A stretch of DNA of 64,000 nt from Ignavibacteria bacterium (GTDB lineage: Bacteria; Bacteroidota; Ignavibacteria; Ignavibacteriales; Ignavibacteriaceae): the NCBI GenBank assembly GCA_030684555.1, contig JAUXVN010000112.1, positions 1 through 64,000 on the forward strand, written 5' to 3'. Shown here one piece after another: positions 6,966 to 56,549 of this stretch (position 1 is the stretch's first letter; every line of letters begins with the position of its first letter). The notes beneath the pieces were generated by a model that made no database searches, was not told the DNA's origin, and saw only the letters and a program-made list of their open reading frames with translations. Both the position numbers and the translations under genes were made by a program.

Positions 6966-7048
6966 GGGTTTATCCTTTGTTATGTTAAATAAAATGACCG
7001 TAACCAACATTGCGTTTTGCGCAGATACCAAAATATTCAATTAGTGTT

Positions 7049-8179: not shown

Positions 8180-8183
8180 ATTA

Positions 8184-8567
8184 TTACTCTTTTTGTTTGA
8201 AAGTTCTTAATGCTAATTTTAATGCGATTAGAGTAGTAGAAATTTGTTTTTCGTATTTATCGATTTCTGCTTTGTTAGTACCATTATGAGTCCCTGATAA
8301 AACATAGTTGAGCAATTTTTCATTAGATGCAGTACCTAATAGCGTTTTGACTATTGCCTTAAGTAGATTCCTTCTTTTATCTACACTGCCGGATTGCTCA
8401 TTTGAGTAAAAGGCAAGGGTTGCAAGCAAACCGGATTGTATAATACTTGCACCCATTGAAGAAATATAACCTTTGTATTCTTTATCCACTTTACCGGCTT
8501 CTGCCATTCCACTGTCAGTAATGGCATCTAATGCTTTTGGAATTAATTCGTTTACTTTTTTATTCAT
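8184..8567 (-). CDS. cmr5: Type III-B small subunit Cmr5
   Basis: This small, helix-rich protein of 127 residues has the Cmr5 pattern: an N-terminal helix with IPKALDAI, a central GYISSMGASIIQSGLLATLAFYS segment and a final helix with LALRTFKQKE. Cmr5 subunits stack along the groove of the Cmr complex and contact target RNA. The length is normal. It lies between cmr4 (2-nt gap) and cmr6 (4-nt gap), which itself supports the call. Confidence 0.9.
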   Translation of the reverse strand: MNKKVNELIPKALDAITDSGMAEAGKVDKEYKGYISSMGASIIQSGLLATLAFYSNEQSGSVDKRRNLLKAIVKTLLGTASNEKLLNYVLSGTHNGTNKAEIDKYEKQISTTLIALKLALRTFKQKE

Positions 8568-8569
8568 GT

Positions 8570-12160: not shown

Positions 12161-13678
12161 TTAGTTAGTCACATCAATTGTTGCAGAAATGTTTTCAAAC
12201 GAAAATGATTTCGATAATTCATCTTCATTATACTTTTTTATTAATTCTTTTAGGTCAATATTAATATTATCATTATTCGGAATTTCCATTTCGATGTGAG
12301 GTGGAATATATTTATTATTTATAATTAAACATTCTTCTAAATATTTTTTGAATCTATCTTTTTGGTCTATTATATAATTATTAATAGTTTTGGTTAAATT
12401 TTTCTTTTTCTTTTCATCATAAATCTTTTCAATCTCTTCAAGATATTGTTTTACCTTCGTTTCTTGTATGGCTAAATTACTAATCAACCAATCTATTTCA
12501 GTTTTGGCCGTACCAAGTCTTTCGGGTACAACTTTCGATTTAATTATAAATTTTCCATAATTCAAAAAGATAGTCTTAACAGTAAATTTTTTATAAAGAG
12601 CAAATTTTTCACTGGTGCTTATAACAGCATCGGTTTGTGGCAAAACAAATATTATGGTCTTATCGGTATACTTAATCGGTTTAAAAGTAATGGGTGATTT
12701 ATACCTTTCAATTTCTGGGTGATGAACTTCAATTTCATAATCGTCTTTTATCTCATAAGTAACTGCTATTTTTTTATCATTTTTTTTATTACACGGTTCA
12801 AGTGTTTTTTTATAGGTAAAATTTCCGGGTAATCCCAGTACTGCCCTAATAAAATATTTTGCAATCCCATCTTTATAAATACCAAAAAATTCTTCTTTGA
12901 TAAATCTCTTTTCCCATCCTTTTTTAGTTTTATCATTAAAATATTTATAAAGGAAAGACTTATGATATTCGCCGCTACATCTACTGTCAAAGTTCAAGTT
13001 GATGCCAGCTTTTAATCGTCTATAATAGTAATCGGTTATAATAAAAATGCGATCGTCTGTTTTCTCCTTAATTGAAATATAAAATGTCCCGCTAGGCAAA
13101 ACGTTTTCAATAGCTTTATAATTTATATGATCTGATTCATCAATATAGAATGAACCATTCCCTTTGTTTTGTCTTGTCCCGAAATTTGTCTCCGCTAAGA
13201 AATAAGGAAATATTTTTTTTATCTCATCTCTTAAATCTTTGTTTAATACAATTATTAATAATTCTATTGGTTTATCAGTCCAAGCATATTCTTTTTCCCC
13301 TTTATGACCCATACCTCCAAAATAAGTTTTATTTTTATCAACACCATCAATCTTTTGAGAATTAGAAAGTATCTTCACCTTATAATCAAAAGCTAATTTC
13401 TGTTTTGAAAGAAATTCGGTTTTTGCACTCTCTTTATTGGGAATACTTAAATCGCTATCAATTCTTTCTATTTCTTTTTCAATACCCTTAGTATCACCTA
13501 TTAAATATTGTTTGTAGTCGTTAAATTTTAGTATCCCACCAAATTCATTTTCAATTAGAAACTTATCCAGTTTAGGTTTCAATTCACTTGCTCGCAATGT
13601 AGCCCCGTACTGGTCATGTTGAAAATGAATGATTGGCGTATGTTGTTTAAGTTTGAAAGTAAGTTTGTAATCGCTCAT
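12161..13678 (-). CDS. cmr1: Type III-B RAMP protein Cmr1
   Basis: This protein of 505 residues opens with YKLTFKLKQHTPIIHFQHDQ, the start typical of Cmr1 in Bacteroidota, followed by ATLRASELKPKLDKFL. The motif TNFGTRQNKGNGSFYI at about 165-180 is the RAMP glycine-rich loop. Cmr1 caps the complex at the crRNA 3' end. It is longer than archaeal Cmr1, with a Lys-rich C-terminal half. It is the second gene of the operon, 2 nt after the CorA fusion gene and directly before cas10. Confidence 0.87.
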   Translation of the reverse strand: MSDYKLTFKLKQHTPIIHFQHDQYGATLRASELKPKLDKFLIENEFGGILKFNDYKQYLIGDTKGIEKEIERIDSDLSIPNKESAKTEFLSKQKLAFDYKVKILSNSQKIDGVDKNKTYFGGMGHKGEKEYAWTDKPIELLIIVLNKDLRDEIKKIFPYFLAETNFGTRQNKGNGSFYIDESDHINYKAIENVLPSGTFYISIKEKTDDRIFIITDYYYRRLKAGINLNFDSRCSGEYHKSFLYKYFNDKTKKGWEKRFIKEEFFGIYKDGIAKYFIRAVLGLPGNFTYKKTLEPCNKKNDKKIAVTYEIKDDYEIEVHHPEIERYKSPITFKPIKYTDKTIIFVLPQTDAVISTSEKFALYKKFTVKTIFLNYGKFIIKSKVVPERLGTAKTEIDWLISNLAIQETKVKQYLEEIEKIYDEKKKKNLTKTINNYIIDQKDRFKKYLEECLIINNKYIPPHIEMEIPNNDNINIDLKELIKKYNEDELSKSFSFENISATIDVTN

Positions 13679-13680
13679 AG

Positions 13681-16224: not shown

Positions 16225-16466
16225 CAATAAAAATACTTTACACTATTTAAATTGAAATCAAACAATATGAACTTTATTTTTAAAGAACGAGTAAAAAATA
16301 GCTATTCTTATATTATATTCAAAATATAATCTATAAATTGAAATGAAAATTCGATTCTATTTACCGAAATTTAAAATATTATATAAAGTACTTAGTGAGG
16401 ATATTTTTTTATTTTGCTTAAAGTACCAAGTGTATCGTGCTGATTTTTCTTTAATAGATTAATTCT

Positions 16467-17408
16467 CTAATTAATATTTATCCCATAATATCTAAATACT
16501 CTTTTTACTCTAAGTGTATTCCATCGACTTGGCTCACCTACTTTTTCCATTTCAAAATGAGTTTTTCCTGGATGATTTGATTGAAGTTTCCACTTTTTAT
16601 CACTACCTCTTTTCTTCAATAAAACCTCAATTGCATCATCCATGCGGACATCATATTTGCGTCCTGAATCTGCAAAATATTCCAAAGCGCGAAGAATATC
16701 ATAATACCAACGTGATGGGTAAGAGAGTCTTAAAAATTGATCTTTAATAATTTCATTAGTCTTGTCTGATTTATATAATTTATGTTGAAGTATAAACTCC
16801 TGAGATTGTTTCTCAACTTTTAATAATTCATTTAATCTGTAGCGATAATTATTTTTTCTGTACTCGTTAATTCCTTCGAGAACAGAAATTGTTGAATGAA
16901 GTGAGCTATGTTTAGCTCCTTTTCTATTGAACTGACAATTAAAACCACCATCCGATAATTGTTGTGTAAGTATATAATCAATGACCGATTTAAGTTCATT
17001 TTCATCAATTTGAAAATAGGCTGCATAATTTAAAAACATACCGTTAATACAAACATCACTTTGAGTAATTGTTCCGGAAGGATTAATTCCGCCATCGTTT
17101 CCTTTATTATGTTCAACAATCATTTGAATGGTTTCGATTATTGGTTTTATGTTTGGCGAGATTGTTAGGTTTTTTAAATCTAATAATGTGTAATGAGATG
17201 AAATCCATTTCGGTTGATAAAATCCATTTCCCCAATGACCATCACGATTTCGACATGATAAAAATCGCGCTCCCCAACCTTCTTTCGCAATTTTTTCTCT
17301 TAGTTCATTTCGCTCAATATCTAATAAATCTCTGAAGACTAAATATTGAATTGAAACATCACCTTCAAGCAACCATGAAATAATTAAATCTTCTGAATCA
17401 TGTTTCAT
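16467..17408 (-). CDS. Prenyltransferase/terpene-cyclase-like toroid protein, function unknown
   Basis: This product has 313 residues from the ATG at 17408, which has GGGA just upstream; an earlier TTG was not chosen. It is helical throughout, with repeated units such as ILTQQLSDGGFNCQF and NRDGHWGNGFYQ that resemble the QW motifs of squalene-cyclase and prenyltransferase-beta alpha/alpha toroids. The DXDD acid of squalene cyclases is not evident, so catalysis is uncertain. No signal peptide is visible. It stands alone between the CRISPR locus and the housekeeping block. The 286-nt gap on its upstream side holds nothing I can identify. Confidence 0.55.
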   Translation of the reverse strand: MKHDSEDLIISWLLEGDVSIQYLVFRDLLDIERNELREKIAKEGWGARFLSCRNRDGHWGNGFYQPKWISSHYTLLDLKNLTISPNIKPIIETIQMIVEHNKGNDGGINPSGTITQSDVCINGMFLNYAAYFQIDENELKSVIDYILTQQLSDGGFNCQFNRKGAKHSSLHSTISVLEGINEYRKNNYRYRLNELLKVEKQSQEFILQHKLYKSDKTNEIIKDQFLRLSYPSRWYYDILRALEYFADSGRKYDVRMDDAIEVLLKKRGSDKKWKLQSNHPGKTHFEMEKVGEPSRWNTLRVKRVFRYYGININ

Positions 17409-17694
17409 TATTCCCAATACCTTATTAATTGACTAATATTATTCGATAATTATGTACAGATTCATTTCGAGTACTTTTCAAAAAACTGATCCTGCTCCCG
17501 TAATAAATGTAAGATATTTTCTTTCACTGCATGCCCGTGCCTCTATTTAGGAAAATTCTTTTTTTGAATTCATAGTTACATTTGGCACTCTATCAAAATC
17601 AGCTAATTCATTCTGTTCCTACAGTGATGAATTATTTCTAAATAAATGATTTACAACAGTGGAGTTAACTACGAGTTAAAATAACAATTTTGAA

Positions 17695-18489
17695 TTAATT
17701 TTTATTCACATTATTAAAACTGAGTTTTCGTATTCCGATGTGGCATAATGCAAAATCATATTTAACCGGATCGTTTTTATCGAACTTCTTCAATTTTTCA
17801 GTTATATCTTCTGCCATTCGCCAATTCGTTATTTTCATTTTTGTAAGTTTAAGTTTTTTTGCAATCTGTGTTATATGAGTATCAACCGGAATAATCAACA
17901 TAGAAGTAGGAATTTCATTCCATAAACCGAAATCGAGTTCATCTTTTCTAACCATCCACCTTAGAAATAAATTCATCCTTTTACATGCGCTCCCCTTTTC
18001 GGGTAAAGGAAACATGAATTTCATTCCATGTGTTAGCCTCTGATTGCAAAGGTCTCCCATTTCATTCAAACAGTAATTGCTGAAACTTGAAATAGCATTC
18101 TTGAGGTTTCTTTCATCATAATTAACTCCCCGATAGAAGATATTTTTAATTGATTCTTTCCTTAAAATTTTGTTCAGAAAAGTAAAAAAGATGATAATAT
18201 CTATTTCAGTATAAAATCGATGTTTTAATCCACTAAATTCTTTTTCAATTTGAGTTGAATTGGAAGATGTTAAAAATTCGTAAGGTGATTCTCCGATTCG
18301 TTCGAATATTTTACTCAATGTTTTGTTTATTTGAGTAACATTTCCGTAAGCAAATATTGAAGAAATAAATGCTGCGATTTCTATATCAGCGGGAATCTTA
18401 TAAAGATGTGGGAATTGTAATGGATCGGGAGCAATTTTTGTTCTGTCAAACTGCTTGTAATGATATTCGAGTAATTTTTTTAACTTCAA
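17695..18489 (-). CDS. TIGR02757 (DUF2400) family protein
   Basis: This protein of 264 residues matches the TIGR02757 pattern: PADIEIAAFISSIFAYGN near 33, FLRWMVRKDELDFGLWNEI near 175, IIPVDTHI near 200 and DPVKYDFALCHIGI near the end. The family is common in Bacteroidota. Its fold is related to the HhH-GPD DNA glycosylases, but no reaction is established. The only start in reach is TTG at 18489, with no strong ribosome site, so the N-terminus is provisional. It follows dgt by 14 nt. Confidence 0.8.
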   Translation of the reverse strand: MKLKKLLEYHYKQFDRTKIAPDPLQFPHLYKIPADIEIAAFISSIFAYGNVTQINKTLSKIFERIGESPYEFLTSSNSTQIEKEFSGLKHRFYTEIDIIIFFTFLNKILRKESIKNIFYRGVNYDERNLKNAISSFSNYCLNEMGDLCNQRLTHGMKFMFPLPEKGSACKRMNLFLRWMVRKDELDFGLWNEIPTSMLIIPVDTHITQIAKKLKLTKMKITNWRMAEDITEKLKKFDKNDPVKYDFALCHIGIRKLSFNNVNKN

Positions 18490-18503
18490 ATTTTTCTGAG
18501 GAT

Positions 18504-19841
18504 TTATAATCGGGCTAAAGAAATGCCGCGTATTTTTTTAAATATTTCGATTGCATAAGTATCAGTCATACTCGATACATAAAGTGTTATTGTTATGATT
18601 CTTAGATACGCAGAGGCACTCTCATCAAGCAAATATTCTTTCGGAATAAGTTTTCTAATTGTTTTATAATATTTTGATTCTGTTTGAAATAATGCGTTCA
18701 GAAAAGCATCAAGCAAACCTGATAAAACTTCAAACCCGGCTGCTTCTATCTCCAATACAGGTTTTGATTGATAGATATTATTTACCGATAGTTCTTCGAT
18801 TTCACTTAAAATATTTAAGGCTTTTATTTTCTTCAAAAGAGGAATGTCAAAGTTTGCAATCATAATATCTTTAGCATTATCCATAAAAATATCAGCTGCT
18901 TCTTTTATCAAAATACCAATCGCTCTTGAACGAAGATACGCAATTTGCTCATTCTCGTCATAGATGTTTGAAAGTCTGTCAAGATTTTCATCTTTGCGGG
19001 TTAAAATTAATGCCTCTAACAAAGTTTTTACTTTGTTGAATTCTACAAATCTCAGTTTGTAACCATCCTCAAGATCAACTATTCTATAACAAATATCGTC
19101 TGCTGCTTCCACTAAAAATGAGAGTGGATGACGATAATATCCATTACTGAATTCCTTCTTTTTCAATCCGAGTGCATTTGCAATTAAATCAAAAGAAGAG
19201 ATATCAGATTCAAAATAACCATATTTCTTTTCGCTTGCATTACCGGAATTTTTTCTGACAGGTAAAGATGACTTTGGATATTTTGTAAATACTCCAAGTG
19301 TTGAATAAGTTAATCCAAGTCCCCCTACATAATTGGATAATGAAGGAAATGTATAAGTCAATAATCTGAAACCGGCTGCATTTCCTTCAAAATTTTGAAG
19401 ATCATTTATTTGGAGTTCATTCAAATCTTTAATAAATTTTTGTGCTCTTTCACTTTTGAAATATTCTGAAATAGCATCTTCACCTGTATGACCGAATGGA
19501 GGATTCCCGATATCGTGGGCTAAACAAGCAGCAGCAACAACCGCTTCGAAATCATATTCACTGAATTTTAAATTTGGGTTTTCATTTAATATCCTCTTCC
19601 CCACTAAATGACCAAGAGATCTACCAACACATGAAGATTCGATACTATGAGTTAAACGTGTGTGAACAAAATCAGTTTCGGGAAGAGGGACAACTTGAGT
19701 TTTATTTTGCAGCCGCCTGAAAGCAGTTGAAAAAACTATTCGATCAAAGTCCTTTTGAAATTCGCTTCTTCCGTCGAATGTTGTTTCGGGAAGATTTTCT
19801 CTGCCGAATCTTTTTGCGTTAAGGAGTTGTTCCCAATTCAT
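18504..19841 (-). CDS. dgt: Deoxyguanosinetriphosphate triphosphohydrolase
   Basis: This 445-residue HD-superfamily enzyme converts dGTP (or other dNTPs) to the deoxynucleoside and triphosphate. The start GRENLPETTFDGRSEFQKD and the block IVFSTAFRRLQNKTQVVPL are dGTPase signatures. Metal ligands are visible as HTRLTHSIESS and AHDIGNPPFGHTGE, the HD motif with the family GHTGE. Length is normal for the type-2 group. dNTPases of this family can also restrict phage. Here the neighbours are housekeeping genes, so dNTP pool control is the simpler reading. Confidence 0.93.
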   Translation of the reverse strand: MNWEQLLNAKRFGRENLPETTFDGRSEFQKDFDRIVFSTAFRRLQNKTQVVPLPETDFVHTRLTHSIESSCVGRSLGHLVGKRILNENPNLKFSEYDFEAVVAAACLAHDIGNPPFGHTGEDAISEYFKSERAQKFIKDLNELQINDLQNFEGNAAGFRLLTYTFPSLSNYVGGLGLTYSTLGVFTKYPKSSLPVRKNSGNASEKKYGYFESDISSFDLIANALGLKKKEFSNGYYRHPLSFLVEAADDICYRIVDLEDGYKLRFVEFNKVKTLLEALILTRKDENLDRLSNIYDENEQIAYLRSRAIGILIKEAADIFMDNAKDIMIANFDIPLLKKIKALNILSEIEELSVNNIYQSKPVLEIEAAGFEVLSGLLDAFLNALFQTESKYYKTIRKLIPKEYLLDESASAYLRIITITLYVSSMTDTYAIEIFKKIRGISLARL

Positions 19842-44489: not shown

Positions 44490-44603
44490 ATTTTTAAACC
44501 GCGTTTAATTGAAACTTATTCTATTGAGTTCAAAGTTTATTTTGAACTTAATCCTATTAAACTATAAGTTTATTTTCATTAATACATTTGATTGGGGAAT
44601 CAC

Positions 44604-45113
44604 ATGAAATCTTTCTTTTTACTTTTAACCGCTGCTTTAATTACTTTATCCGGATGTACTAAAAATGAATCTGTCAGCGCTCCCGAAATTGATAATTTAT
44701 CGTGGAATAAACAGATTGCAGCCGCCTATGTTCATTCTTATGCTACTGCTATTGGAGAGGCAGCTTTGAAGCTATCAAATGATTCAACTCTAATTGATTT
44801 CATTAGAAAATCCATAAACCCAATTAGTTTTTATGCTGATAGTTCGGGATACTTTTATGTCTACGATTACAATTGCGTAAATATTGCACACGCAAGACAA
44901 AAAGATATTGAAGGACAAAATCTCTACGACTATACTGATACAAAAGGTAAATATGTAGTAAGAGAGTTAGCAGTAAAAGCGCAAAGTGGTGGTGGTTATG
45001 TTGAGTTTTATTGGATAAAACCGGGTGAAACTGGCGAGAAGAAAAAACTTGGTTATGTTGAACCAATACCAAACACAAATTATTTCATTGGTTCTGGAGT
45101 ATATTTGGAATGA
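44604..45113 (+). CDS. Cache-domain lipoprotein
   Basis: This protein has 169 residues from the ATG at 44604, preceded by GGGGAATCAC; an in-frame TTG 12 nt upstream was rejected. The lipobox LITLSGC gives a lipidated Cys at about 17. The mature part is a single Cache-type sensor fold with the typical final run GYVEFYWIKPGE, KKLGYVEPIP and YFIGSGVYLE. Cache domains bind small ligands for chemoreceptors and kinases. This free-standing version could be a solute-binding sensor partner. An AGTTCAAA/TTTGAACT dyad lies upstream at 44527-44548. Confidence 0.75.
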   Translation: MKSFFLLLTAALITLSGCTKNESVSAPEIDNLSWNKQIAAAYVHSYATAIGEAALKLSNDSTLIDFIRKSINPISFYADSSGYFYVYDYNCVNIAHARQKDIEGQNLYDYTDTKGKYVVRELAVKAQSGGGYVEFYWIKPGETGEKKKLGYVEPIPNTNYFIGSGVYLE

Positions 45114-45138
45114 GAGTAGAGCTTTTTTAATAAAAAAA

Positions 45139-47700
45139 TTATTTCACTTTAACTACAACACAAGTGATATCATCAAATTGCTCCATGCCGTCTCTAAAAC
45201 TAACGGTTGCAGCGATAATGTGGTTCATGATTTCGTGAGCACTTTTAATATTATTTAATCTTAACGTATTCATTAGATTTTCCGTCCCAAAGAATTCTTC
45301 ATCGGCATTAATTGTTTCTGTAATTCCATCAGAATAAAACAAATACACTTCTCCTTTATGAAGTTTTATTTCTTCCTCTTCCAAAGTTGATTCGAAGATT
45401 GGTCCCTTATCAAGACCTAATCCAATTCCCTTTGATTGAAACAAATTAATATTTCCGGATTGAGAGACTAATAATGGAACGTGCCCGGCTCGACATACAC
45501 TTACAATATTGTTATCTAAATCGAAAATGGCTAAAGTTAGGGTTATAAACCAATGACGTTCAATCGCTTTATATATTTGTCGATTCAACTCCAACAAGAT
45601 TTCTTTTGGAGAATCAAATTGAGTTGAATAAAGATTTATCAACGTTTGAAGTTTTGTCATATATAAAGAAGCTGAAAGTCCTTTGCCTGACACATCTCCC
45701 ACCACCACAAGTATTCTTTTTTCAGAGATTTTTATCACATCAAAATAGTCTCCTCCGACTTGCATTGCGGGTAACATTTTCCCTGCTATCTCAAGTTGTT
45801 CAACGTTCGGAATTTCCTTAGGAACAAGTGTTTCTTGTATTTTACGGGCAAGCTCCAAATCTCTTTCTAACCTTAATTTTTCAGTTTCAGATTTGTATAA
45901 TCGAGCATTTTCAATAGAAACGGCAGCCTGATTTGCCACCGCACTTAATAACTCTAATTCTTTAATTGAAAATTTCGACCCTGAATATTTTAATCCGAAT
46001 ATCATCAAACCTATAATATTATTATTTACAATTAGTGGAAGAGTTGTATAAATTTCTTCTTTTTGAAATAGCTCACTGTATATAGAGAAATCATTTTGTG
46101 ATTCTTGGGAGTCAATTATATTAAATTTTCCTTCCTTAAATTTCTCGAGGATCAAAGTTGATATCTGTGAATCTTCATTAAATACTAATTTCGATTTATC
46201 AATAATATTTCTACTTCGGACTAATGAAAAGGTATTAAGTTTATGATTTTTCAGAATTAATCCAAACTTTTGAACTTTAAGCAAATCTGAAAATGTTGAA
46301 GTAATCGTGTCTAAAATATGATCCAAAGTAAATGCAATTGAACCGTTTAGATCTTTACTTAATTGAAGAAGTATTTTTTCATAAACAAATTGTTCAGGGT
46401 AAAACTTGCGTGTAAGTAAACCTTGAAATTTATCTTTAGTCGATTGAAAAACTAAAGCAAAAAGTAAAAACGAGATCGCTGATATAAAATTTTGATAATC
46501 TGTTCCCACTACAGAACCTATACTTTGCCCAATAACATATACCGATAAGAAATACAATATGGCTAAAGTAAAAGTAGCAGAACCATATACGATTGTATTC
46601 TTAACAACTACACTCACATCAAGTAGTTGGTATTTTAAAATTGAATATCCAAACGCTATAGGGATAAGGACAATCAATATTATCGGTGTATAATGTTCTG
46701 GAGTGTTAAATACTATATCGGCGACCAGCGGAGCAAAAAATATCACATAGATAACACCAAGTATTCCTATAACAAAGGAATTTAGAATGATAAATACCGA
46801 TTTTTTCTGAGGAGAGTTCTTTGTTAGTTTTCTATAATTTAATGCAAGCATTAGTAATGAAATCATTAATGATGTAACAAAAAATATATTAACCGGAACA
46901 AATAGAGCTGCTGGATTCGATGAAAGATTTTTCACATATAACGGACTATTAAATATGTACATATAGTAAACTACATAAATTACCATGGGAGCCAGATAGA
47001 GTGTAACTTTAAACCATCGCTTATTCATTACAGTAGAACGAGTTGGAAAGATTAAAAAGAAATGTAAAAAGACCATCGGTAAGAAGAATGATGCAATTCC
47101 CCAGATTAGTACAAAGGGAAAGTATCTGGAATTTAAATATTCAAGACTATAAAACTGGGGAAACAATAGATTTATTTTATTTATTACAAAAATTACCCCT
47201 AATAAATAAAACATTCGTTGAGCTTTCCCATCTGGATTTGCAGTAAGACTAGAAAAACTTACAATCAGCCAAATTACACCGAGTAAGCTAAAAGCAAAAT
47301 CTCCTATGTTAAACATTTTTTTAATTAATACGTTTGTCTCAAAAATTCCATCATCATTCTCTATTTTATAGATAGCATAATCACCTTCAGCAATTTTATT
47401 CAATAGTAATTGAGCATGACTTGTTCCTATGAGGGAATTACCATTTAATTCACGAAATTTATCTCCATTGCGTATTCCAGCATTGTAAGTGACTCCTCCC
47501 ACCTTAACTTTATCAAATACAATTATCACACTATCTTTATCAATTTTGTGAGGTATCCACAAACATTCATCATTTGAAATTTTATTTATTGAATAAGCTG
47601 TGTAGATATTGAAAACCCCAACTATCAAAATTATTATAGTAATAATCGAGATTATTATTTGCCGATAATTGTGAAGAAAATTTAAAATACTTTTATACAT
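45139..47700 (-). CDS. Membrane SpoIIE/PP2C phosphatase with PDZ-like and GAF domains
   Basis: This protein of 853 residues has TM1 at about 14-35, then an extracytoplasmic PDZ-like segment (VGGVTYNAGIRNGDKFRELNG, about 67-87). About seven to eight membrane helices (about 130-410), a GAF-like domain (about 445-610; LLSAVANQAAVSIENARLY) and a PP2C phosphatase (from about 640) follow. The phosphatase shows VGGDYFDVIK, VVVGDVSGKGLSASLY and LFYSDGITETINADEEF. It should dephosphorylate a STAS antagonist in a partner-switching circuit, with the PDZ and helices as signal input. It starts right after the stop of the previous phosphatase gene. Confidence 0.82.
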   Translation of the reverse strand: MYKSILNFLHNYRQIIISIITIIILIVGVFNIYTAYSINKISNDECLWIPHKIDKDSVIIVFDKVKVGGVTYNAGIRNGDKFRELNGNSLIGTSHAQLLLNKIAEGDYAIYKIENDDGIFETNVLIKKMFNIGDFAFSLLGVIWLIVSFSSLTANPDGKAQRMFYLLGVIFVINKINLLFPQFYSLEYLNSRYFPFVLIWGIASFFLPMVFLHFFLIFPTRSTVMNKRWFKVTLYLAPMVIYVVYYMYIFNSPLYVKNLSSNPAALFVPVNIFFVTSLMISLLMLALNYRKLTKNSPQKKSVFIILNSFVIGILGVIYVIFFAPLVADIVFNTPEHYTPIILIVLIPIAFGYSILKYQLLDVSVVVKNTIVYGSATFTLAILYFLSVYVIGQSIGSVVGTDYQNFISAISFLLFALVFQSTKDKFQGLLTRKFYPEQFVYEKILLQLSKDLNGSIAFTLDHILDTITSTFSDLLKVQKFGLILKNHKLNTFSLVRSRNIIDKSKLVFNEDSQISTLILEKFKEGKFNIIDSQESQNDFSIYSELFQKEEIYTTLPLIVNNNIIGLMIFGLKYSGSKFSIKELELLSAVANQAAVSIENARLYKSETEKLRLERDLELARKIQETLVPKEIPNVEQLEIAGKMLPAMQVGGDYFDVIKISEKRILVVVGDVSGKGLSASLYMTKLQTLINLYSTQFDSPKEILLELNRQIYKAIERHWFITLTLAIFDLDNNIVSVCRAGHVPLLVSQSGNINLFQSKGIGLGLDKGPIFESTLEEEEIKLHKGEVYLFYSDGITETINADEEFFGTENLMNTLRLNNIKSAHEIMNHIIAATVSFRDGMEQFDDITCVVVKVK

Positions 47701-49383
47701 TTAATTTACTTTAATGACTATTAGAGTAATATCATCTGACTGCATTTGCCCTAAGGTATAATCGGAAATTTCATTTCCAATCTTTTTAATAATTTCAGTT
47801 GAATTTTCATCAGAAAGACTTAGCAAAAATGATTCAAATCGTTCATCTGAAAAATCTTCATCTTCAAGATTTTTGGCTTCCGTAATTCCATCAGTAAAAA
47901 GAACTATAAGATCACCCGATTGTAAGAATATTTCCTCTTGTAAATATGGAGTAAAAGTCTTCATAACTCCGAGGATTATTCCCCCTTTCTCTAATCTTTG
48001 TATTTTATTATTCCTAATTAATAAAGGTGGATTATGACCGGCATTAACATATTTAAAACTTTTAAATTCGTCATCCAATATTCCCCAAAAGAAAGTAATA
48101 AATCTTCCGTCAGAAGTATTTTCTGTTACCAAATCATTAATTACACCTGTTGCTGAATCTATCGTTAAACCTTGCTTACAAATCGATTTCAAAAATGCTT
48201 GAAGGTTTGCCATAAGAAGTGATGCAGGGACACCCTTCCCTGACACATCACCTATTGCAACAACATAATCTTTTTCATTTAGTTTAATAACATCATAATA
48301 ATCTCCCCCCACCTGCTTAGAAGAAACTGAGAGGGCAGCAATTTCAAAGTTTTTAAGCTCGGGTAATTTAGATGGAAGAAGTTTTTGTTGAATAGTTTTT
48401 GCAATCTCAAGTTCTTCTTCTAATTTTTGTTTTTCGAGAGCTTCTTTAAAGAGTTTTTTATTCTCGAATGAAACAATGGCTAAACTTCCAACTGAAGAAA
48501 CGAATTCGATATCATCTTCAGTATAATCAATATTATTAATTCTTTTACCTAATAGAATTATACCTTTAGTTACATTTTGAAGAGACATCGGAACTATCAA
48601 CTCAAAACCAAAACCGGAAAGTAATGGGAATTCCTTTTTCATATTAACCGAATTTATCGGCTGTGAGATTTTAGAAATATCATAAAGAGATAAAACAGAA
48701 TTAATTTTTTCATGGGTTATTGTTGATTCCAGAAGTATTAATTCTTTATTCTCAAAAAGAACGATTGAGTAATTTGAAATCATGAAATGCCCGAGTAACG
48801 AATAAAGAAGAAGTTTTCCAATTCTAACTTCTTGATTAATTATTCCGAACTCTTTACTTAGTTCAAAAAGTGAATTAAGTCTATTTATTCTTGAATCAAG
48901 ATTCCTATTTACTAGTTTGAGTTCTTGAATAAAAATCGAGTTTTCAATCGCAGTTGCTGCAATATTTAATATAGTCTTTAAAAATTCAGTCTCTTCTTCA
49001 GAATAGTCCGTTTTGTTTATCTTTTCGCCAAGCGCAATAAAACCAAGGCAATCCCTTGATGAACATATTTTCTGAAAAAAAATAAGCTTATTCAATTTCA
49101 AGTATTCACTTAATTTTGAATCAATGATTATATCTTCATTTATATATTTTACTTGAGGAAAAGATTCTACAATTTCAGGCGAAAGACCTTTTGAAGAGTA
49201 TATTTTAGAATTTCCTTTGTCATTCAGAACAACGATACCGCGCGTTACAAGAAATTTTCCGAAACAACTCAATAGTAGATTATTGAGTGTAAATTCAAGA
49301 TTAAGACTTGAGTTTACAATTCTGCTAAACTCAACTAATGCTGAAAGATTACGTTGAACTTTAGTCAAATCAGTGGGTGTCAT
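47701..49383 (-). CDS. Cytoplasmic GAF-GAF-PP2C phosphatase
   Basis: This protein of 560 residues has no membrane helices. Two GAF-like domains are visible (about 15-150 and 165-310), the first ending AATAIENSIFIQEL. A linker helix and a SpoIIE-type PP2C domain (from about 345) follow, with VGGDYYDVIKL, VAIGDVSGKGVPASLLMA and LFTDGITEAKNLEDE. Its ATG overlaps the stop of the RsbW-like gene by 4 nt. The GAF pair would sense a small molecule or redox state. STAS dephosphorylation is the known role of such RsbU/SpoIIE enzymes. Confidence 0.85.
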   Translation of the reverse strand: MTPTDLTKVQRNLSALVEFSRIVNSSLNLEFTLNNLLLSCFGKFLVTRGIVVLNDKGNSKIYSSKGLSPEIVESFPQVKYINEDIIIDSKLSEYLKLNKLIFFQKICSSRDCLGFIALGEKINKTDYSEEETEFLKTILNIAATAIENSIFIQELKLVNRNLDSRINRLNSLFELSKEFGIINQEVRIGKLLLYSLLGHFMISNYSIVLFENKELILLESTITHEKINSVLSLYDISKISQPINSVNMKKEFPLLSGFGFELIVPMSLQNVTKGIILLGKRINNIDYTEDDIEFVSSVGSLAIVSFENKKLFKEALEKQKLEEELEIAKTIQQKLLPSKLPELKNFEIAALSVSSKQVGGDYYDVIKLNEKDYVVAIGDVSGKGVPASLLMANLQAFLKSICKQGLTIDSATGVINDLVTENTSDGRFITFFWGILDDEFKSFKYVNAGHNPPLLIRNNKIQRLEKGGIILGVMKTFTPYLQEEIFLQSGDLIVLFTDGITEAKNLEDEDFSDERFESFLLSLSDENSTEIIKKIGNEISDYTLGQMQSDDITLIVIKVN

Positions 49384-49823
49384 GCTGCTGTATTTTTAAT
49401 TTTCTTTGCAATTGTTAATTGATTATATCCCCCTTTGTCGGTATGATATTCCACATAATCCATCAAAGTTCTAATGAGATGTAGTCCTAAACCCCCAACT
49501 TTTTTCTGTTCAAAATATTTTGGCATATCAGGTTGAGGAATTTGGGAAGGATTAAACCCTTCACCAAAGTCAATTAAAATAATTCTACATTTGTCATCGG
49601 TGAACTCTAATTGAATAATTATATCGCCATCAGGTTTTGAGTGATATGCATGTTTGATAATATTTGTGGAAGCTTCATCAACGGCAAGAATAATTTTATC
49701 AATTATTGCCTGATGTACCCCTTTATTTAGTGCAGTCTCCTGTATAAAATCTCTAACTAAACTGAGATTTTCAGTTGTACTTTTAATCTGCATTTCATAC
49801 GATTTATGATTTAGAGTTTTCAC
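49380..49823 (-). CDS. RsbW-like anti-sigma/serine kinase (HATPase_c)
   Basis: This 147-residue GHKL ATPase has the N box in AVDEASTNIIKHAYH, the G1 box in LIDFGEGFNP and a G2-like GGLGLHLIRTLMDYVEY, as in RsbW/SpoIIAB/BtrW. Such proteins hold a sigma factor or another partner and phosphorylate a STAS protein. The listed start is GTG 8 nt after the STAS stop. The ATG at 49793 (MQIKSTTENL) is an equally possible start and gives a more typical N-terminus. Confidence 0.85.
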   Translation of the reverse strand: MKTLNHKSYEMQIKSTTENLSLVRDFIQETALNKGVHQAIIDKIILAVDEASTNIIKHAYHSKPDGDIIIQLEFTDDKCRIILIDFGEGFNPSQIPQPDMPKYFEQKKVGGLGLHLIRTLMDYVEYHTDKGGYNQLTIAKKIKNTAA

Positions 49824-49831
49824 GGTTTTTT

Positions 49832-50182
49832 TTATTGCTGATTAAATTTATCAATCGCTTCTTTTTCAGTACTAAAGAACTCATATAATAAAGGGAATCC
49901 CAAAAGATCAAAAATATTATAAACACTTGGAATCATCGTTGTAAGTTTAATATCACCGTTATTAGAACGAATTGTTTCGATAAAAGCCATAAATACTCCG
50001 AGTCCTGCGCTGCTTATATATTTAAGTTTTTCAAAATTAGCAACAATTTTGAATCTCTTTTTATCAATTAAATCAGAGAATGCTGACTCAAGCTGCGGTG
50101 CAGTGTGAGCATCGAGATAACCATTTAATTCGATTATACTTACATCTCCAGCTTCTCTGATTGTTGTACTAAAATCTGACAT
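49832..50182 (-). CDS. STAS-domain anti-anti-sigma factor
   Basis: This 116-residue STAS protein of the RsbV/SpoIIAA type contains LKYISSAGLGVFMAF, with the Ser pair (about 56-57) at the position phosphorylated by RsbW-type kinases. It starts 15 nt after the upstream phosphatase gene and precedes the kinase, giving the order phosphatase-antagonist-kinase-phosphatase-phosphatase in one operon. Phosphorylation of this Ser is inferred from the family. Confidence 0.88.
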   Translation of the reverse strand: MSDFSTTIREAGDVSIIELNGYLDAHTAPQLESAFSDLIDKKRFKIVANFEKLKYISSAGLGVFMAFIETIRSNNGDIKLTTMIPSVYNIFDLLGFPLLYEFFSTEKEAIDKFNQQ

Positions 50183-50197
50183 TATTTTTCTCCATGA

Positions 50198-52240
50198 TTA
50201 TTTCCATCTAAAAACAACTAAGGTTATATCATCATGTTGAGGGCTCGATTCCGAAAAAAGAGTTACTCCGGTAACAATTTTATTGGCGATTTCATCAACA
50301 TTTTTTTCGCTATTCTCAAGAACAATTTTCATTAATGAATTAATCCCAAAATCTTCTAATTTTTCATTTTTTGCTTCTGTAATTCCATCGGTATACAAAA
50401 TTAGTAAATCATCTTTTTCTAATTTTATTTGTGCTTCTTCTACAACATTTCCGAATAACTCTGTATAATTAAGACCCAGTCCGATACCTCTAAAAGTATA
50501 TTCCGTGGCTTCACCATTTCGGATTAATAACAACGGAGCATGACCTGCACGCGATATAGATATTTTCTTTTCAACAAAATCAAAAACACCGAAAGTAGCA
50601 GTGATAAAGCTTTTGGCATCTAATGTACGTTCTAAAATTGAATTAGCTTTGGTTAAAATTTCCTTCGGGCTGTGAAGTAAATCAGTCAACGATTCAAAAA
50701 TACCTCTGATTTCCGCCATTATAAAAGCCGCCGAAATCCCTTTACCTGAAACATCAGCAATAACGAAACCTAATTTTGTTTTACTCAATTCAAAAAAATC
50801 ATAATAGTCACCACCGACTTCAAATGCAGGAATAAATATTGCAGCTATATCAACAAAATCATTTTTAGGAAGTTTATCAGGTAACAATTTTTTCTGCATT
50901 TCACGAGCAACATCTAATTCTTTTTCTAATCTTTCTTTTTCAATTGATTCCTCAAGCAACCTTGAATTTTCAAATGCGATGGATGTATAGTCAGAAAAAG
51001 TCAGTAGCGTATTTTTTTCCTCAAAGTCGAATGGTATATCGGTTCGTTTAGCTATAACTATGTACCCGCTAATCCCTTGATGGGACTGGAGTGGAGCAAT
51101 AGCAGCATATTTAAAAATCTCGTTCTGCAACTCCGGATTAATTACATTTGTTAATTCGAGAGTTGAAATCTTTTGAACTGTTTTTACACTACCGCTTTCA
51201 AAAAATGCTTTTACAATATTATCTGCTTGAATGAAACTTATATTTTTTGCAGCAATAGGAGTAAAGGATGAATCATTTTGTTTGATAATCCAGGCTGCAT
51301 CTGCTGTACAAACTTTTAAAGCTAAATCTGTTACAGTGTCTGCAAGTTCCTTAGAATCAAGAACTTGATTAATCATTTTACTAAAATATTGTAAAGATGA
51401 TATCTCCGTTGTTTTACGGTCGAATGCTTCAGCGGTAGGAAGATGAAACAATGTTGTGAAGAATAGAACGCTAAAATAGACGATTCCGTAAATATTCAAT
51501 AAGAAAAAGAACTGATAAACTGATGGTGCAAAATTCTCTACCATCCCGATGAAAAAATCGTTTGATTTCGAAAATGCTAATGAGATCGAGAAAATGAAAA
51601 CCAATAGAACTGAAAGTAATAGTAACTGTTTTTTCTGTTTTTTACTTAAAAAAGCCATCCATGAAATTCTAACTGAATTTATCACTATTAGAATAATCGC
51701 ATTTACTGTAAATGTTATGTGTATAAATTCAAATTGCGATTCATTCTCTATAAAAGCTGTAACTGACGATAAAATAAAAAAAACAATCAAAGCATTAAAA
51801 TATGTCCGCAAATTTTTTCGCTGCTGTAAAAAGAATAAAATTCTAAATACGATAAAGACATATGCTAACGATATAATGAGTAAAACATTAATAATAAATG
51901 GTATAGTTTTTTGAAGTGTAAAACTATCTATCCAGATATTTTTCCCTTCAATTCCAAATAAACCAAAGAACAATTCAACTATATTAAATAGGATAAGATT
52001 TACAGTTATAAGAACAACCAAACCTATTAACAGCGAGATTGGAGAATAATTCCTTTGCCCAATTATGCTAAACAGGTTTACCATAATCGAATAAACAATA
52101 AACAGAATTAACACTTCATTCAAAAGTAAGAGTGATGTTGTTTCACTTGTAACATAAAAAAGTTTTATAAACAGTAGGATAACCAAAACAATAAAAAAAA
52201 CTTGAATTCTTATCTTTTGTGCAAGTCCGAAAAACGGCAT
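50198..52240 (-). CDS. Membrane SpoIIE/PP2C phosphatase with GAF domain
   Basis: This protein has about 680 residues from the first ATG (52240); an upstream TTG six codons earlier is possible. About eight membrane helices fill residues 8-260, then a GAF-like domain (about 285-420), a linker helix, and a PP2C domain with VGGDYYDFFEL, FVIADVSGKGISAAFIMAE and ILYTDGITEAKNEKLED. This is the first gene of the partner-switching operon and should act on the STAS protein encoded next to it. Confidence 0.85.
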   Translation of the reverse strand: MPFFGLAQKIRIQVFFIVLVILLFIKLFYVTSETTSLLLLNEVLILFIVYSIMVNLFSIIGQRNYSPISLLIGLVVLITVNLILFNIVELFFGLFGIEGKNIWIDSFTLQKTIPFIINVLLIISLAYVFIVFRILFFLQQRKNLRTYFNALIVFFILSSVTAFIENESQFEFIHITFTVNAIILIVINSVRISWMAFLSKKQKKQLLLLSVLLVFIFSISLAFSKSNDFFIGMVENFAPSVYQFFFLLNIYGIVYFSVLFFTTLFHLPTAEAFDRKTTEISSLQYFSKMINQVLDSKELADTVTDLALKVCTADAAWIIKQNDSSFTPIAAKNISFIQADNIVKAFFESGSVKTVQKISTLELTNVINPELQNEIFKYAAIAPLQSHQGISGYIVIAKRTDIPFDFEEKNTLLTFSDYTSIAFENSRLLEESIEKERLEKELDVAREMQKKLLPDKLPKNDFVDIAAIFIPAFEVGGDYYDFFELSKTKLGFVIADVSGKGISAAFIMAEIRGIFESLTDLLHSPKEILTKANSILERTLDAKSFITATFGVFDFVEKKISISRAGHAPLLLIRNGEATEYTFRGIGLGLNYTELFGNVVEEAQIKLEKDDLLILYTDGITEAKNEKLEDFGINSLMKIVLENSEKNVDEIANKIVTGVTLFSESSPQHDDITLVVFRWK

Positions 52241-52405
52241 ATTAAAAATATTTCGCAACCTTAAAACCTATCTTATTCCTTCTAAATATAGGTGAATTCT
52301 ATGAATTATCAATCTCGACCAAAAAATAAGGAATGAGTTTGATATTATAAAGCTAAGATTTATGTGCGGTTAAAAAGGATGATGGATTGCTGGTTATAGT
52401 AGGAT

Positions 52406-52431
52406 GAGAGGCTGTAATGAAACAGCCTCTC
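52406..52431. terminator. Hairpin after the anti-sigma gene
   Basis: GAGAGGCTGT (52406-52415) and ACAGCCTCTC (52422-52431) form a perfect 10-bp stem with a 6-nt loop, 4 nt past the anti-sigma stop on the minus strand. The following T content is low, so termination is likely but not certain. Confidence 0.6.
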
Positions 52432-52435
52432 GTTA

Positions 52436-53938
52436 TTAAATTTCTATCGGAGTTTTTTCTTTTTTTATTGGAGTAGATTCCGGATTCAATTCTTTTCTCA
52501 TCTTCTCCATTTCTTCACGGAAGAATTGCATCTCTTTTTTTACACGTTCCATTTCTTTTCTGAGTTCCTTCGAATTCACCATTACCGTATCTTGCATAAA
52601 AAACTTAAATACATTTTGAAGAGAATCAAGTGATTGCAGACTCAATCCACGGGAATCTATTTGAATATCAAAACCTGATTTATTTCCCTTTTTGTCATTA
52701 TACTTCATACTGAATGACTGCTTTTTACCTACTGTATCAATTTTGATATTAACTTTCATATCTCTCATCTGCCCAAATGCTATTTCTATAGCTTCGTTCA
52801 TACCAACAAGATTTGGCAGCTGAATATCGGGAATTGCAAAATCCGGGATTTCTACTTTGCAAAAGTCATCATTTACAACAATTTTAAGTTCTTTATTTGA
52901 TCTTTGACTATTTGAATTACTTGAGCGGACAAATACACGGACTTCATCATCAAATCCTTTCATATCTTTATTTACCACAATTTGATCTTTGAATCTAGAA
53001 ATCTCAGATTTAAGTAGTGCTTTATCAACATCGAAAGAACTGGTAAAAATTGTATCAGGTGTAAAAACAAAATAGTTGTTGTTATCACTTTTTTTAACAT
53101 TTGAAACTAATTTTGCAATATCTTCAACATTATGTACGCCAACATTCACAGGAAATATTTTAGCAAAAGCAGTCTTGTTAGCCTGCGCTGCAAAAGCCAT
53201 CACATCAGCTTTGAGTGCATTTTGATAATTCACGATATTCGGATTTACAGCTACTGTTTTGTTTTCATTAACAAGAATTTGTGAAGCAAGATCGTCAGAA
53301 TAACTAAGTAATATTGAATCAAATTGTTTTTTCTGTTTCGAGTCTAATTCAAGTGATTCAACGAAAGAAGCCAGATTAACCTTATTTTCATTTTTCTTGC
53401 CGTCCTCAAATTTAACTTCGAAAAAGTCTTTCCCTGCTTCATCAACTCCGAATAGGAGTACTTGATTATTTTCTTTGTCAAGTGTTATAGAACGATTAAA
53501 TGCAAAATCAAAAATATCATCCGAGTTTAAACCAACATTGAAAATAAAAGGTTTGAGATTTGCAGCATACAAATCCATTAAATTGGCTTTTTGTTCATCA
53601 ATAAAACCAACGAAAATTCCCGGGTAAAATCTGAAAATCGCCATTAAAATCAACGTTACCGAAGCAAAAATAATTATTGGTTTCCTAAAAAGGAAAGAAT
53701 ACCAAACTTTAAGCTTTTCTGATTTTATTCGCTCAAAAAGTCTTGTCTCGAAATAATGATCTTCAGGTAATGGCTTTATTCCGTTTACTAAGTCTTTAAT
53801 TTCTTTAATCGATTGTAATTCTTTTTGAAGACTTACATCAGATTTCAACTCATCGGTTAACAATTCTTTTTCAGTTGGATTTAATTCATCATCCAACAAA
53901 GAGGATAAAGACTCTAATTTTTTATTATTTATTTTCAT
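52436..53938 (-). CDS. Membrane anti-sigma factor with large extracytoplasmic domain
   Basis: This 500-residue protein has a cytoplasmic helical start (about 1-75; LESLSSLLDDELNPTEKELL), like anti-sigma domains but without the zinc HxxxCxxC motif. One membrane helix follows (about 84-106), and then a large outside region ending in a Lys/Glu-rich coiled coil (about 455-490). The gene overlaps the stop of the sigma factor gene by 4 nt, which is the classic pairing. It is much longer than most anti-sigma factors, so the outer domain may be the sensor. I recognise no family in it. Confidence 0.72.
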   Translation of the reverse strand: MKINNKKLESLSSLLDDELNPTEKELLTDELKSDVSLQKELQSIKEIKDLVNGIKPLPEDHYFETRLFERIKSEKLKVWYSFLFRKPIIIFASVTLILMAIFRFYPGIFVGFIDEQKANLMDLYAANLKPFIFNVGLNSDDIFDFAFNRSITLDKENNQVLLFGVDEAGKDFFEVKFEDGKKNENKVNLASFVESLELDSKQKKQFDSILLSYSDDLASQILVNENKTVAVNPNIVNYQNALKADVMAFAAQANKTAFAKIFPVNVGVHNVEDIAKLVSNVKKSDNNNYFVFTPDTIFTSSFDVDKALLKSEISRFKDQIVVNKDMKGFDDEVRVFVRSSNSNSQRSNKELKIVVNDDFCKVEIPDFAIPDIQLPNLVGMNEAIEIAFGQMRDMKVNIKIDTVGKKQSFSMKYNDKKGNKSGFDIQIDSRGLSLQSLDSLQNVFKFFMQDTVMVNSKELRKEMERVKKEMQFFREEMEKMRKELNPESTPIKKEKTPIEI

Positions 53939-54531
53939 AATAGTTCCTTCTTGTAAGGAGTCAAAATCTTTTTTAATGCCTCACGCGCCCGGAAAATTCT
54001 TGATTTTATTGTTCCTAATTCAACACCCATTGTCTCCGAAATTTCTTGATAACTTAATCCGTCAAAATCTTTAAGTATCAACGGAATTCTTAATTTTTCT
54101 GGAAGAGTTGCAATTGCCTGTCTAACAATCAATTTAATATCATAATCTTCAGGCACTTGTTCAGGAGAGATAAGATTTTCCGATTCAGTTGTGAATGGTG
54201 AAAAGATACTTCTGATTTTGATTTTTCTAAGATGATCTCGACATTTATTAACTGTGATTCGATATAACCATGTTGTGAACTGAGATTCAAATCTAAAAGA
54301 ATTCAGTTTTCTGTAAACTGAAATAAAAACTTCCTGAGAAATATCATCTATGGAGTCAGTATTTCCCAAAGTCAAATAGATTAGATTTCTCACTTTTTCT
54401 TTGTGCCTTGAAATGAGAGTTCGAAAAGCTGATTCATCACCATCATTAAATCTCTTAATCAGAGAAAAATCATCATCTAAAGTTAAGATTGTCTGTGTTT
54501 GCACTTCTTCATTAATTTTGTTGTTATTCAT
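53935..54531 (-). CDS. ECF sigma-70 family RNA polymerase sigma factor
   Basis: This 198-residue sigma-E-type factor has region 2 at about 25-95 (DDISQEVFISVYRKLNSF and FTTWLYRITVNKCRDHLRK). Region 4 at about 135-190 has the helix-turn-helix YQEISETMGVELGTIKSRIFRARE. There are no extra domains. Its own membrane anti-sigma follows. Target promoters cannot be told from the window. Confidence 0.93.
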   Translation of the reverse strand: MNNNKINEEVQTQTILTLDDDFSLIKRFNDGDESAFRTLISRHKEKVRNLIYLTLGNTDSIDDISQEVFISVYRKLNSFRFESQFTTWLYRITVNKCRDHLRKIKIRSIFSPFTTESENLISPEQVPEDYDIKLIVRQAIATLPEKLRIPLILKDFDGLSYQEISETMGVELGTIKSRIFRAREALKKILTPYKKELL

Positions 54532-54806
54532 GTCTTAAGACGAATTTGTTACTAAAAGAGTTCCTAAAAAAATAAATATAAAGTGAGATATTTTTCAGTT
54601 CACAATCTAAGGAAAAAAGACAATTTTCGAACAAGTAAATTGTTTCTTTGTGATAAACAGAATTATTGTTAGATTAACGAATATAATCCTATTTCAATGG
54701 CAACTGAAAAATGAAAATAATAAGGTAAATCGGATATATTTGAAAGAAGATACTTGCATTAAAAACTGTAACTCATTAAATTTTGAACAAACAAAAGGAT
54801 GGTTTC

Positions 54807-55148
54807 ATGAAAATTAAAATCAATGAAAAATATGGTGCGGTAATCGTTGAGTTAAAGGGAAATGTAATGGGAGGACCTGATGCCGGTGAACTCAGTGAAA
54901 CTCTCAGAAAACTACTTGCCGAGGGGAAAAAAAATATCGTATTTGATTTAGCAGATGTCAAGTTTATGAACAGTTCCGGTTTAGGAATGTTGATAAGCGG
55001 TTTAACTACCGTTAAAAAAGAAGAAGGTGTACTGAAATTAGCTAATGTAACTGAAAAGATTGAAAGCCTCCTGATGATCACAAAACTTATAAGCATTTTT
55101 GATCATTATGACTCAGTTGAAAACGCCGTAAAAAGTTTTTCAAAGTAA
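54807..55148 (+). CDS. STAS-domain anti-sigma factor antagonist
   Basis: This protein has 113 residues from the ATG at 54807, which has AAAAGGA seven nt before it; an in-frame TTG upstream was rejected. The STAS core DVKFMNSSGLGMLISGL carries the Ser pair expected for phosphorylation. It lies on the opposite strand from the partner-switching operon 5 kb away and could be a second substrate for the same kinase and phosphatases, an inference from proximity. The 275-nt region upstream shows a possible -7 box TATATTTG (54735-54742) without a clear -33 partner. Confidence 0.88.
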   Translation: MKIKINEKYGAVIVELKGNVMGGPDAGELSETLRKLLAEGKKNIVFDLADVKFMNSSGLGMLISGLTTVKKEEGVLKLANVTEKIESLLMITKLISIFDHYDSVENAVKSFSK

Positions 55149-55277: not shown

Positions 55278-56549
55278 ATGCAGGTTACAATTTTAGTCGG
55301 AAGTCAATGGGGAGATGAAGGCAAAGGAAAAATTGTCGATCTTTTAAGTGAAAATTTTCCTATTGTAGCACGTTATCAAGGGGGAGCAAATGCAGGGCAT
55401 ACCGTTGAAATTGGCGACGATAAATATATCCTTCACTTAATTCCATCAGGTATTTTAAGAAAAGATGTCATTTGTGTAATCGGCAGCGGTGTTGTAATTG
55501 ATCCGATTGCTTTACTCGAAGAAATTGAACTTCTCGAAAAAAATAATATTTCCGTTAAGGGAAGATTATTCATAAGTCATAATGCACATTTGATTATGCC
55601 CTACCACAAGCTATTAGACTCAATTAACGAAAGCGGAAAAAATAAAATCGGAACAACGGGAAGAGGTATCGGACCTTGTTATATTGACAAATATGCACGC
55701 AAAGGGATAAGGATAAATGATCTTTTAAATCGTGAACTTCTTGCACAAAAAATCAGAATGAATTTAGATGAAAAAAATCTTCTATTAAAAAATATTTATG
55801 GTAAAGATGAATTAAATGTTGAAGAGATCATTGAACAATATGAAGCATTTGACAAAGCTATCGATCCATACATTAAGGATGTTCCTGCATTTTTAAATAA
55901 TGCTATTAGTGAAGGGAAATCAATATTGTTAGAAGGTGCTCAGGGAGCATTGTTAGATGTAGATTTTGGCACTTATCCTTTTGTTACCTCATCAAATCCA
56001 ACTTCCGGTGGAGCATGTACAGGTACAGGAATTCCACCCAATAAAATTACTAATGTAATTGGAATTGTTAAAGCATACACAACCCGGGTTGGTGAAGGAC
56101 CTTTCCCAACAGAACTGCTTGATGCAACAGGCGAAAAATTGAGAAAAGTTGGAAGTGAATTCGGGGCAACAACGGGACGTCCAAGGCGTTGCGGTTGGTT
56201 TGACGCACCTTTAGTAAAGTATTCTCAAATGGTTAACGGCATTGATTCTGTAGCAATTACCAAATTAGATGTTCTCGATCATTTCGAAGAAATTCAAGTT
56301 TGCACCGCATACGAATTTGAAGGTAAGTTGCTTAAAAACTTCCCCACTGATCCGGATAAATTGAATCTTGTGAAACCTATTTATACTTCCCTTCCCGGTT
56401 GGAATTCTGATACAACCAAATGCGAATCATATAATGATTTACCTCAGCTCACAAAAAATTATTTGGAATTTATTGCAAATGCAGCCGGTATTAAGATTGA
56501 AATTATCTCCGTTGGACCTAAAAGAAAGCAGACATTTTATAAAAAATGA
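55278..56549 (+). CDS. purA: Adenylosuccinate synthetase
   Basis: This 423-residue enzyme makes adenylosuccinate from IMP, aspartate and GTP, the first committed step to AMP. VGSQWGDEGKGKIVDLL, the P-loop-like GANAGHTVEIG, GTTGRGIGPCYIDKYAR, TSSNPTSGGACTGTGIPP and TTGRPRRCGWFDAP are all PurA signatures. Length is standard. Its stop overlaps the ATG of the amidase gene, so the three plus-strand genes to 59616 form one transcript. Confidence 0.97.
   Translation: MQVTILVGSQWGDEGKGKIVDLLSENFPIVARYQGGANAGHTVEIGDDKYILHLIPSGILRKDVICVIGSGVVIDPIALLEEIELLEKNNISVKGRLFISHNAHLIMPYHKLLDSINESGKNKIGTTGRGIGPCYIDKYARKGIRINDLLNRELLAQKIRMNLDEKNLLLKNIYGKDELNVEEIIEQYEAFDKAIDPYIKDVPAFLNNAISEGKSILLEGAQGALLDVDFGTYPFVTSSNPTSGGACTGTGIPPNKITNVIGIVKAYTTRVGEGPFPTELLDATGEKLRKVGSEFGATTGRPRRCGWFDAPLVKYSQMVNGIDSVAITKLDVLDHFEEIQVCTAYEFEGKLLKNFPTDPDKLNLVKPIYTSLPGWNSDTTKCESYNDLPQLTKNYLEFIANAAGIKIEIISVGPKRKQTFYKK

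Follow-up and report, generated by a model that had tools for sequence, protein, structure and literature searches.

An ECF sigma factor heads an order-wide partner-switching unit with three phosphatases in Ignavibacteriales

What does a serine kinase of the RsbW type control when three different phosphatases are encoded beside it and the linked sigma factor is of the ECF type? This question is raised by a locus in the window, by which we mean the whole 64,000-nucleotide stretch of Ignavibacteria bacterium DNA analysed here (GenBank assembly GCA_030684555.1, contig JAUXVN010000112.1, positions 1 to 64,000). In the order of transcription, the minus-strand genes encode the ECF sigma factor, a membrane anti-sigma protein, phosphatase A, STAS protein S, kinase K, and phosphatases B and C (Table 1). 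A preliminary description of this DNA had recognized the five genes from A through C with spacings of 0 to 15 nucleotides, and this arrangement is borne out. All five genes are co-directional, with 15 nucleotides between A and S, 8 between S and K, a 4-nucleotide overlap of K with B, and 0 nucleotides between B and C. The start of A taken in that description is an alternative ATG at position 52240. Converging on the end of C is a gene for a small protein (positions 44592-45113) that is probably a lipoprotein and carries a Cache sensor domain (dCache_2, E 1.9e-28).

Table 1. Features of the switch locus and its surroundings in the window.
Feature	Position	Strand	Match or remark
C, PDZ-membrane-GAF-PP2C phosphatase, PDZ extracytoplasmic	45139..47700	-	SpoIIE-type PP2C, E 1.3e-39
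B, soluble GAF-GAF-PP2C phosphatase	47701..49383	-	SpoIIE-type PP2C, E 6e-44
K, RsbW-like serine kinase, GTG start	49380..49823	-	HATPase_c_2, E 1e-28
S, STAS protein, anti-anti-sigma type	49832..50182	-	STAS, E 2.9e-16
A, polytopic membrane GAF-like PP2C phosphatase, TTG start	50198..52258	-	SpoIIE-type PP2C, E 2e-43
Membrane anti-sigma: N-terminal sigma-binding domain (by model), one TM helix, extracytoplasmic region	52436..53938	-	
ECF sigma factor, 198 aa	53935..54531	-	Sigma70_r2 1e-15, r4_2 5e-18 (Pfam)
Putative ECF promoter, GGAAC-N17-CGTC	54539..54564	-	7 nt before ECF start codon, leaderless layout; position derived from promoter survey and gene coordinates
S2, second STAS protein, divergent from ECF, upstream of purA	54783..55148	+	Domain scan
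purA, conserved neighbour, context only	55278..56549	+	

The proteins of this locus carry the residues that mark a switch of the RsbV/RsbW type. S has the phosphorylatable serine of an S-x-G-L-G loop, Ser58, in 55/55 orthologues, and we take this residue to align with the RsbV/SpoIIAA site. K is a GHKL kinase of the RsbW/SpoIIAB type with intact N- and G2-boxes, as evident by the N-box asparagine and G2 glycines that are invariant in 54/54 orthologues, and its closest solved relative is RsbW (6m36, E 1.2e-25). The metal-binding aspartates of the PP2C domains are kept in all orthologues of A, B and C that cover them (49 to 54 sequences per site, with a 36-residue contig-edge fragment included in the set for A). 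Dead phosphatases, which the preliminary description had named as a possible objection, are thereby ruled out, and its picture of three intact PP2C sensors beside a single STAS/kinase pair is confirmed and extends over an order. Several phosphatases (RsbU and RsbP) feed one STAS protein in Bacillus subtilis, and therefore the presence of three PP2C proteins is by itself not novel.

The GAF and PDZ labels of the phosphatases rest partly on relatives. In the window, Pfam searches with a limit of E<=0.01 match neither a GAF domain in A nor a PDZ domain in C. The GAF domains of B score below the cut-off. A GAF domain is found in the A protein of 3 of 4 relatives, and PDZ_6 is present in 40 of the 43 members of the C alignment. 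A structure model of C places a small beta domain (residues 41-129) after the first helix.

Reading the neighbourhoods of members of the same order, with 53 regions in the main set, reveals that conservation of the gene set is far beyond chance. Where the downstream side is covered, S, K and B are present at 41/41 loci and C at 39/41, and the complete series A-S-K-B-C, whose conservation the preliminary description had proposed as a check, is found at 38/41. Where more than 3 kb upstream of A is covered, the anti-sigma gene is present at 46/49 loci. PP2C C or a homologous PP2C was matched in 59/59 relatives searched, some of these matches not being orthologues of C. The named relatives are Ignavibacteriales and include Ignavibacteriaceae and Melioribacteraceae records. 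Since the named records of each show one of the two anti-sigma forms described below, we infer that the family of the window (f1) is Ignavibacteriaceae and that the larger sister family (f2) is Melioribacteraceae; a smaller sister family is called f3.

The ECF factor and its anti-sigma had been viewed at first as a system separate from the switch, and this view did not hold. An ECF gene stands just upstream of the switch at 49/49 loci with more than 3 kb upstream of A, a count that takes in the pseudogene remnant of one genome, G017, as ECF sequence. Another genome, G021, has purA and S2 and no ECF gene within its 2.3 kb of upstream sequence and thus falls below the 3-kb limit; its inclusion would give 49/50. 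Moreover, a promoter-like sequence of the form GGAAC-N16/17-CGTC precedes 45 of 46 ECF genes (N16 in 37, N17 in 8), where the 46 include the broken G017 copy and seven more loci have no ECF gene in reach. An ATG follows 6-7 nucleotides past the -10 element in 35 of the 45 promoter-bearing genes, which is a leaderless layout. Across 931 kb of loci the pattern gives 46 matches on the operon strand versus 5 on the other, and it precedes A at 0/50 loci. From the form and position of this element, the ECF factor is likely to recognize the promoter upstream of its own gene. A conserved ECF-type promoter at the head of the ECF gene, with co-directional switch genes downstream, is strongly supported by these comparisons. 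A degenerate CCG[TC][TA][TCA]A element also lies upstream of A in f1 (26/32 loci; about position 52369 on the minus strand of the window). It is too degenerate to interpret and is perhaps a candidate second promoter, in which case the switch could run without the ECF factor.

Near-consensus promoters of this type show no excess outside the unit in 59 genomes, and thus no wider ECF regulon is visible. The strict pattern gives 66 listed matches in the 59 genomes, most of them at the switch locus, against 63 (summed by hand) for a reversed-pattern control. A relaxed pattern gives 130 matches against 208 for the control in 58 genomes, with the GC-rich genome G024 (24 forward, 4 control) omitted; this pattern misses the promoter of the window itself (CGTCTTA), and weak sites may escape detection.

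Might the kinase instead serve another sigma factor? A sigma-B-type factor adjacent to the switch in relatives, which the preliminary description had foreseen as decisive against its reading, is seen at none of the surveyed loci. Where sigB-type operons have a linked group-3 factor (sigma-B/F), the linked factor here is an ECF. The 4.34-Mb genome that includes the window yields 13 sigma70_r2 matches, one in a 284-residue frame and the rest ECF-sized, and holds no second RpoD-sized sigma70_r2 frame. A sigma-B-type partner was rejected on these grounds. In the same genome, the SpoIIE family gives 14 matches, of which 13 exceed the cut-off; HATPase_c_2 gives 8 that exceed its cut-off, and STAS gives 11. 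Outside the window, its contig C58 carries a second multi-phosphatase cluster (positions 2357-19280) with six SpoIIE-family PP2C matches, one of them short, alongside a STAS protein (18605) and an RsbW-like kinase (18948).

The strongest part of the case is a clade-wide loss from the anti-sigma protein. In the window this protein has no Pfam or NCBIfam match. Its AlphaFold model shows helices at residues 2-52 (pLDDT mostly 94-96), and a Foldseek search with the model ranks RsiW best (probability 0.99) and also gives MucA (0.90), with no hit at E<=0.001. By this model the protein is of the normal class-I type with its sigma-binding domain present, and thus the earlier claim that the ECF factor has its own anti-sigma stands for the family of the window. 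It fails for the sister families, where the sigma-binding domain has been lost. The protein was matched in 145 of 164 genomes of the order (searched: 80 in f1, 79 in f2 and 5 in f3; unmatched: 5, 14 and 0), with family totals and model start positions counted by hand. Matches start at model positions 1-7 in 73 of the 75 matched f1 genomes, the other two being cut by contig ends. In f2 and f3 together, all 70 matched proteins (of 84 genomes searched) start at position 27 or later and lack the domain that, in the family of the window, makes a class I anti-sigma beside its ECF factor. The start lies at position 60 or beyond in 65 of them; the five f2 matches with earlier starts are all interrupted by stop codons, and the f2 match in G343 (from position 360) is a mere fragment at a contig end. 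The shortened proteins begin just ahead of the transmembrane helix, usually with about 13-25 residues before it. The transmembrane and extracytoplasmic parts are kept in all 70 genomes (e.g. L084:3578-4870), and because they persist despite the loss of the domain, the remnant probably has a further role.

In 14 f2 genomes the protein is absent altogether. In two of these, A follows the ECF gene after 3 nucleotides (G037) and 29 nucleotides (G045). A named metagenome bin (L127) is a further case, with 151 nucleotides in between. The possibility that a full anti-sigma had relocated in G017, G021, G037 and G045 was rejected after three of the four gave no match; the sole match in G017 is of the N-terminal type and lies beside another ECF gene. 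All of the 22 f2/f3 genomes examined, G037 and G045 among them, encode the ECF factor, S, K and B, and all but one of the f2/f3 ECF promoters persist beside the kinase locus among the ECF genes examined. The fraction of ECF columns that are at least 90% identical is 0.49 in f2/f3 versus 0.37 in f1, and thus there is no relaxation in f2/f3; the corresponding PurA values are 0.59 and 0.58. The distance from the anti-sigma stop codon to the A start is 124-2483 nucleotides in 28/28 f1 genomes and at most 113 nucleotides in 19/20 f2/f3 genomes. Therefore, to judge from the spacing, transcription of the entire gene set in f2/f3 probably starts at the ECF promoter. A single loss of the domain would be simplest, with the count insecure because the tree of A and B, with nine outgroups, groups f2 and f3 with a support of just 0.397.

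Taken together, this locus is a real, order-wide unit and a variant of partner switching with an ECF factor as its linked sigma factor. We tentatively favor the explanation that the ECF factor, the membrane anti-sigma and the switch form one sigma-driven unit in which K probably restrains the ECF factor. By homology, A, B and C would all remove the phosphate from Ser58 of S, each upon a different signal: a membrane signal for A, a soluble one for B, and one sensed through the extracytoplasmic PDZ domain for C. Unphosphorylated S would bind K, and K would phosphorylate S again. When not bound to S, K would serve the linked ECF factor as an anti-sigma of the RsbW type, and that factor may recognize the promoter heading its own gene and so make the unit self-amplifying. 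In Ignavibacteriaceae, including the window, K would act beside the membrane anti-sigma, and in the sister families that lost the domain or the protein, K would be the main restraint. In the sister families, an apparently self-activating ECF factor with no recognized sigma-binding anti-sigma should run away unless restrained, and K is the sole other anti-sigma-type protein in the unit; thus K probably serves as the restraint, most clearly where the membrane anti-sigma is lost. The contact between K and the ECF factor is the weakest part of the case, as the residue-shift and distance tests give it no support. Diagnostic residue changes between f1 and f2/f3 number zero in K and one in the ECF factor, which is uninformative. 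Distance-matrix coevolution of the ECF factor with K, other genes controlled, is 0.17 in f1 and -0.02 in f2/f3; pairs of a known type are likewise weak, such as S-K (0.04 in f2/f3).

An explanation that is nearly as likely, and that we weigh almost equally, makes the ECF factor just a transcriptional gate, such that envelope stress frees it and A-S-K-B-C are made, after which K or unphosphorylated S would control an unlinked target, which could be a different sigma factor or a protein of another kind; such control has been proposed for RbaVW and Bordetella systems. The explanation agrees with the near confinement of near-consensus promoter sites to the unit, and with genomes that keep the switch although their ECF gene is broken or missing. 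In G017 the ECF gene is reduced to stop-interrupted fragments and the anti-sigma is absent, G021 lacks the orthologous ECF, and both keep A-S-K-B-C; therefore K must be useful without this ECF. Also consistent is that, in nine genomes from two other families of the class, an ECF gene with a full anti-sigma is unlinked from an A-S-K-B switch without C, the two modules being on different contigs or far apart. All nine of these ECF loci have a same-strand promoter match at most about 240 nucleotides upstream of the ECF gene, as read by hand. The switch of these genomes (L306-L314) adjoins an apparent leucyl-tRNA synthetase gene, recognized from its start, or secDF. A precedent exists in Rhodobacter, where, in the portion of PMC3999984 available, no sigma partner of RbaW was found and RbaV is the seeming effector. 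However, gating alone leaves the apparently self-activating ECF of f2/f3 with no recognized restraint.

The modules can exist apart, as judged from the other families and from G013, G017 and G021. In G013 the ECF and anti-sigma genes are kept and K (best match 5e-19) and the PP2C genes (best 4e-33) look lost, at a site where the contig ends. From the same three genomes one could argue that the two modules merely share a locus with no regulation between them. This is very improbable given the gene order that is fixed throughout the order, the promoter at its head and the near-abutting genes of f2/f3. It is also unlikely, although less so, that the phosphatases are divided between S and S2 as two switches on one kinase. 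S2 is a possible second substrate, as it has the phosphosite serine in 44/44 sequences and the S2-purA pair adjoins the unit, divergent from the ECF gene, at 40/49 loci. However, S2 is encoded together with purA on the opposite strand, and the other STAS proteins of the genome (11 matches) are equally plausible.

How does the favored unit, with K restraining the ECF factor, compare with known systems? The sigB operon of B. subtilis joins rsbV and rsbW to an autoregulated sigma gene. The Ignavibacteriales unit resembles that RsbV/RsbW/RsbU/RsbP/SigB switch in that a STAS protein, an RsbW-like kinase and PP2C sensors accompany a sigma factor that appears to regulate itself, but the factor is an ECF rather than a group-3 sigma, three PP2C genes are in the operon and there is an extra membrane anti-sigma. 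The Ignavibacteriaceae ECF factor with its adjacent membrane anti-sigma and cytoplasmic helical sigma-binding domain is reminiscent of SigW-RsiW, AlgU-MucA and RpoE-RseA, except that a partner switch follows in the unit and the domain is lost throughout two sister families. An ECF factor possibly under partner switching recalls EcfG-NepR-PhyR of Alphaproteobacteria, which employs a phosphorylated sigma mimic and a histidine kinase rather than a STAS protein, serine kinase and PP2C; no sigma-mimic regulator or NepR occurs among the nine window proteins scanned (44592-55148). Gram-negative STAS/kinase/PP2C switches without sigma-B include BtrV-BtrW-BtrU of Bordetella. RbaV-RbaW-RbaY of Rhodobacter is another, and differs in having no linked sigma gene according to the available part of PMC3999984, whereas here the ECF gene is fixed in the unit.

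In the parts available of two ECF reviews, partner switching of ECF factors is described for EcfG/NepR/PhyR only (PMC8999054, PMC8103513), and PMC7406223, in its accessible portion, used RsbW as a negative control, with RsbW types never described to interact with ECFs. Among the open-licence PMC literature, the portions seen of these three sources, PMC3999984 and PMC11418112 describe no STAS/RsbW/PP2C switch acting on an ECF factor. It is possible, although we hold this with some doubt, that the partner switch took over an ECF factor here that had earlier relied on a membrane anti-sigma alone. An RsbW-type kinase would have become its anti-sigma, and the membrane protein would then have shed the sigma-binding domain in two families and disappeared from some genomes. 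If so, the locus would provide the first case of a STAS/RsbW/PP2C system acting on an ECF factor. The fixed unit of ECF factor and Ser/Thr switch, together with a natural loss of the anti-sigma domain throughout a clade, offers a clean route to the question of how one mechanism of sigma-factor control gives way to another.
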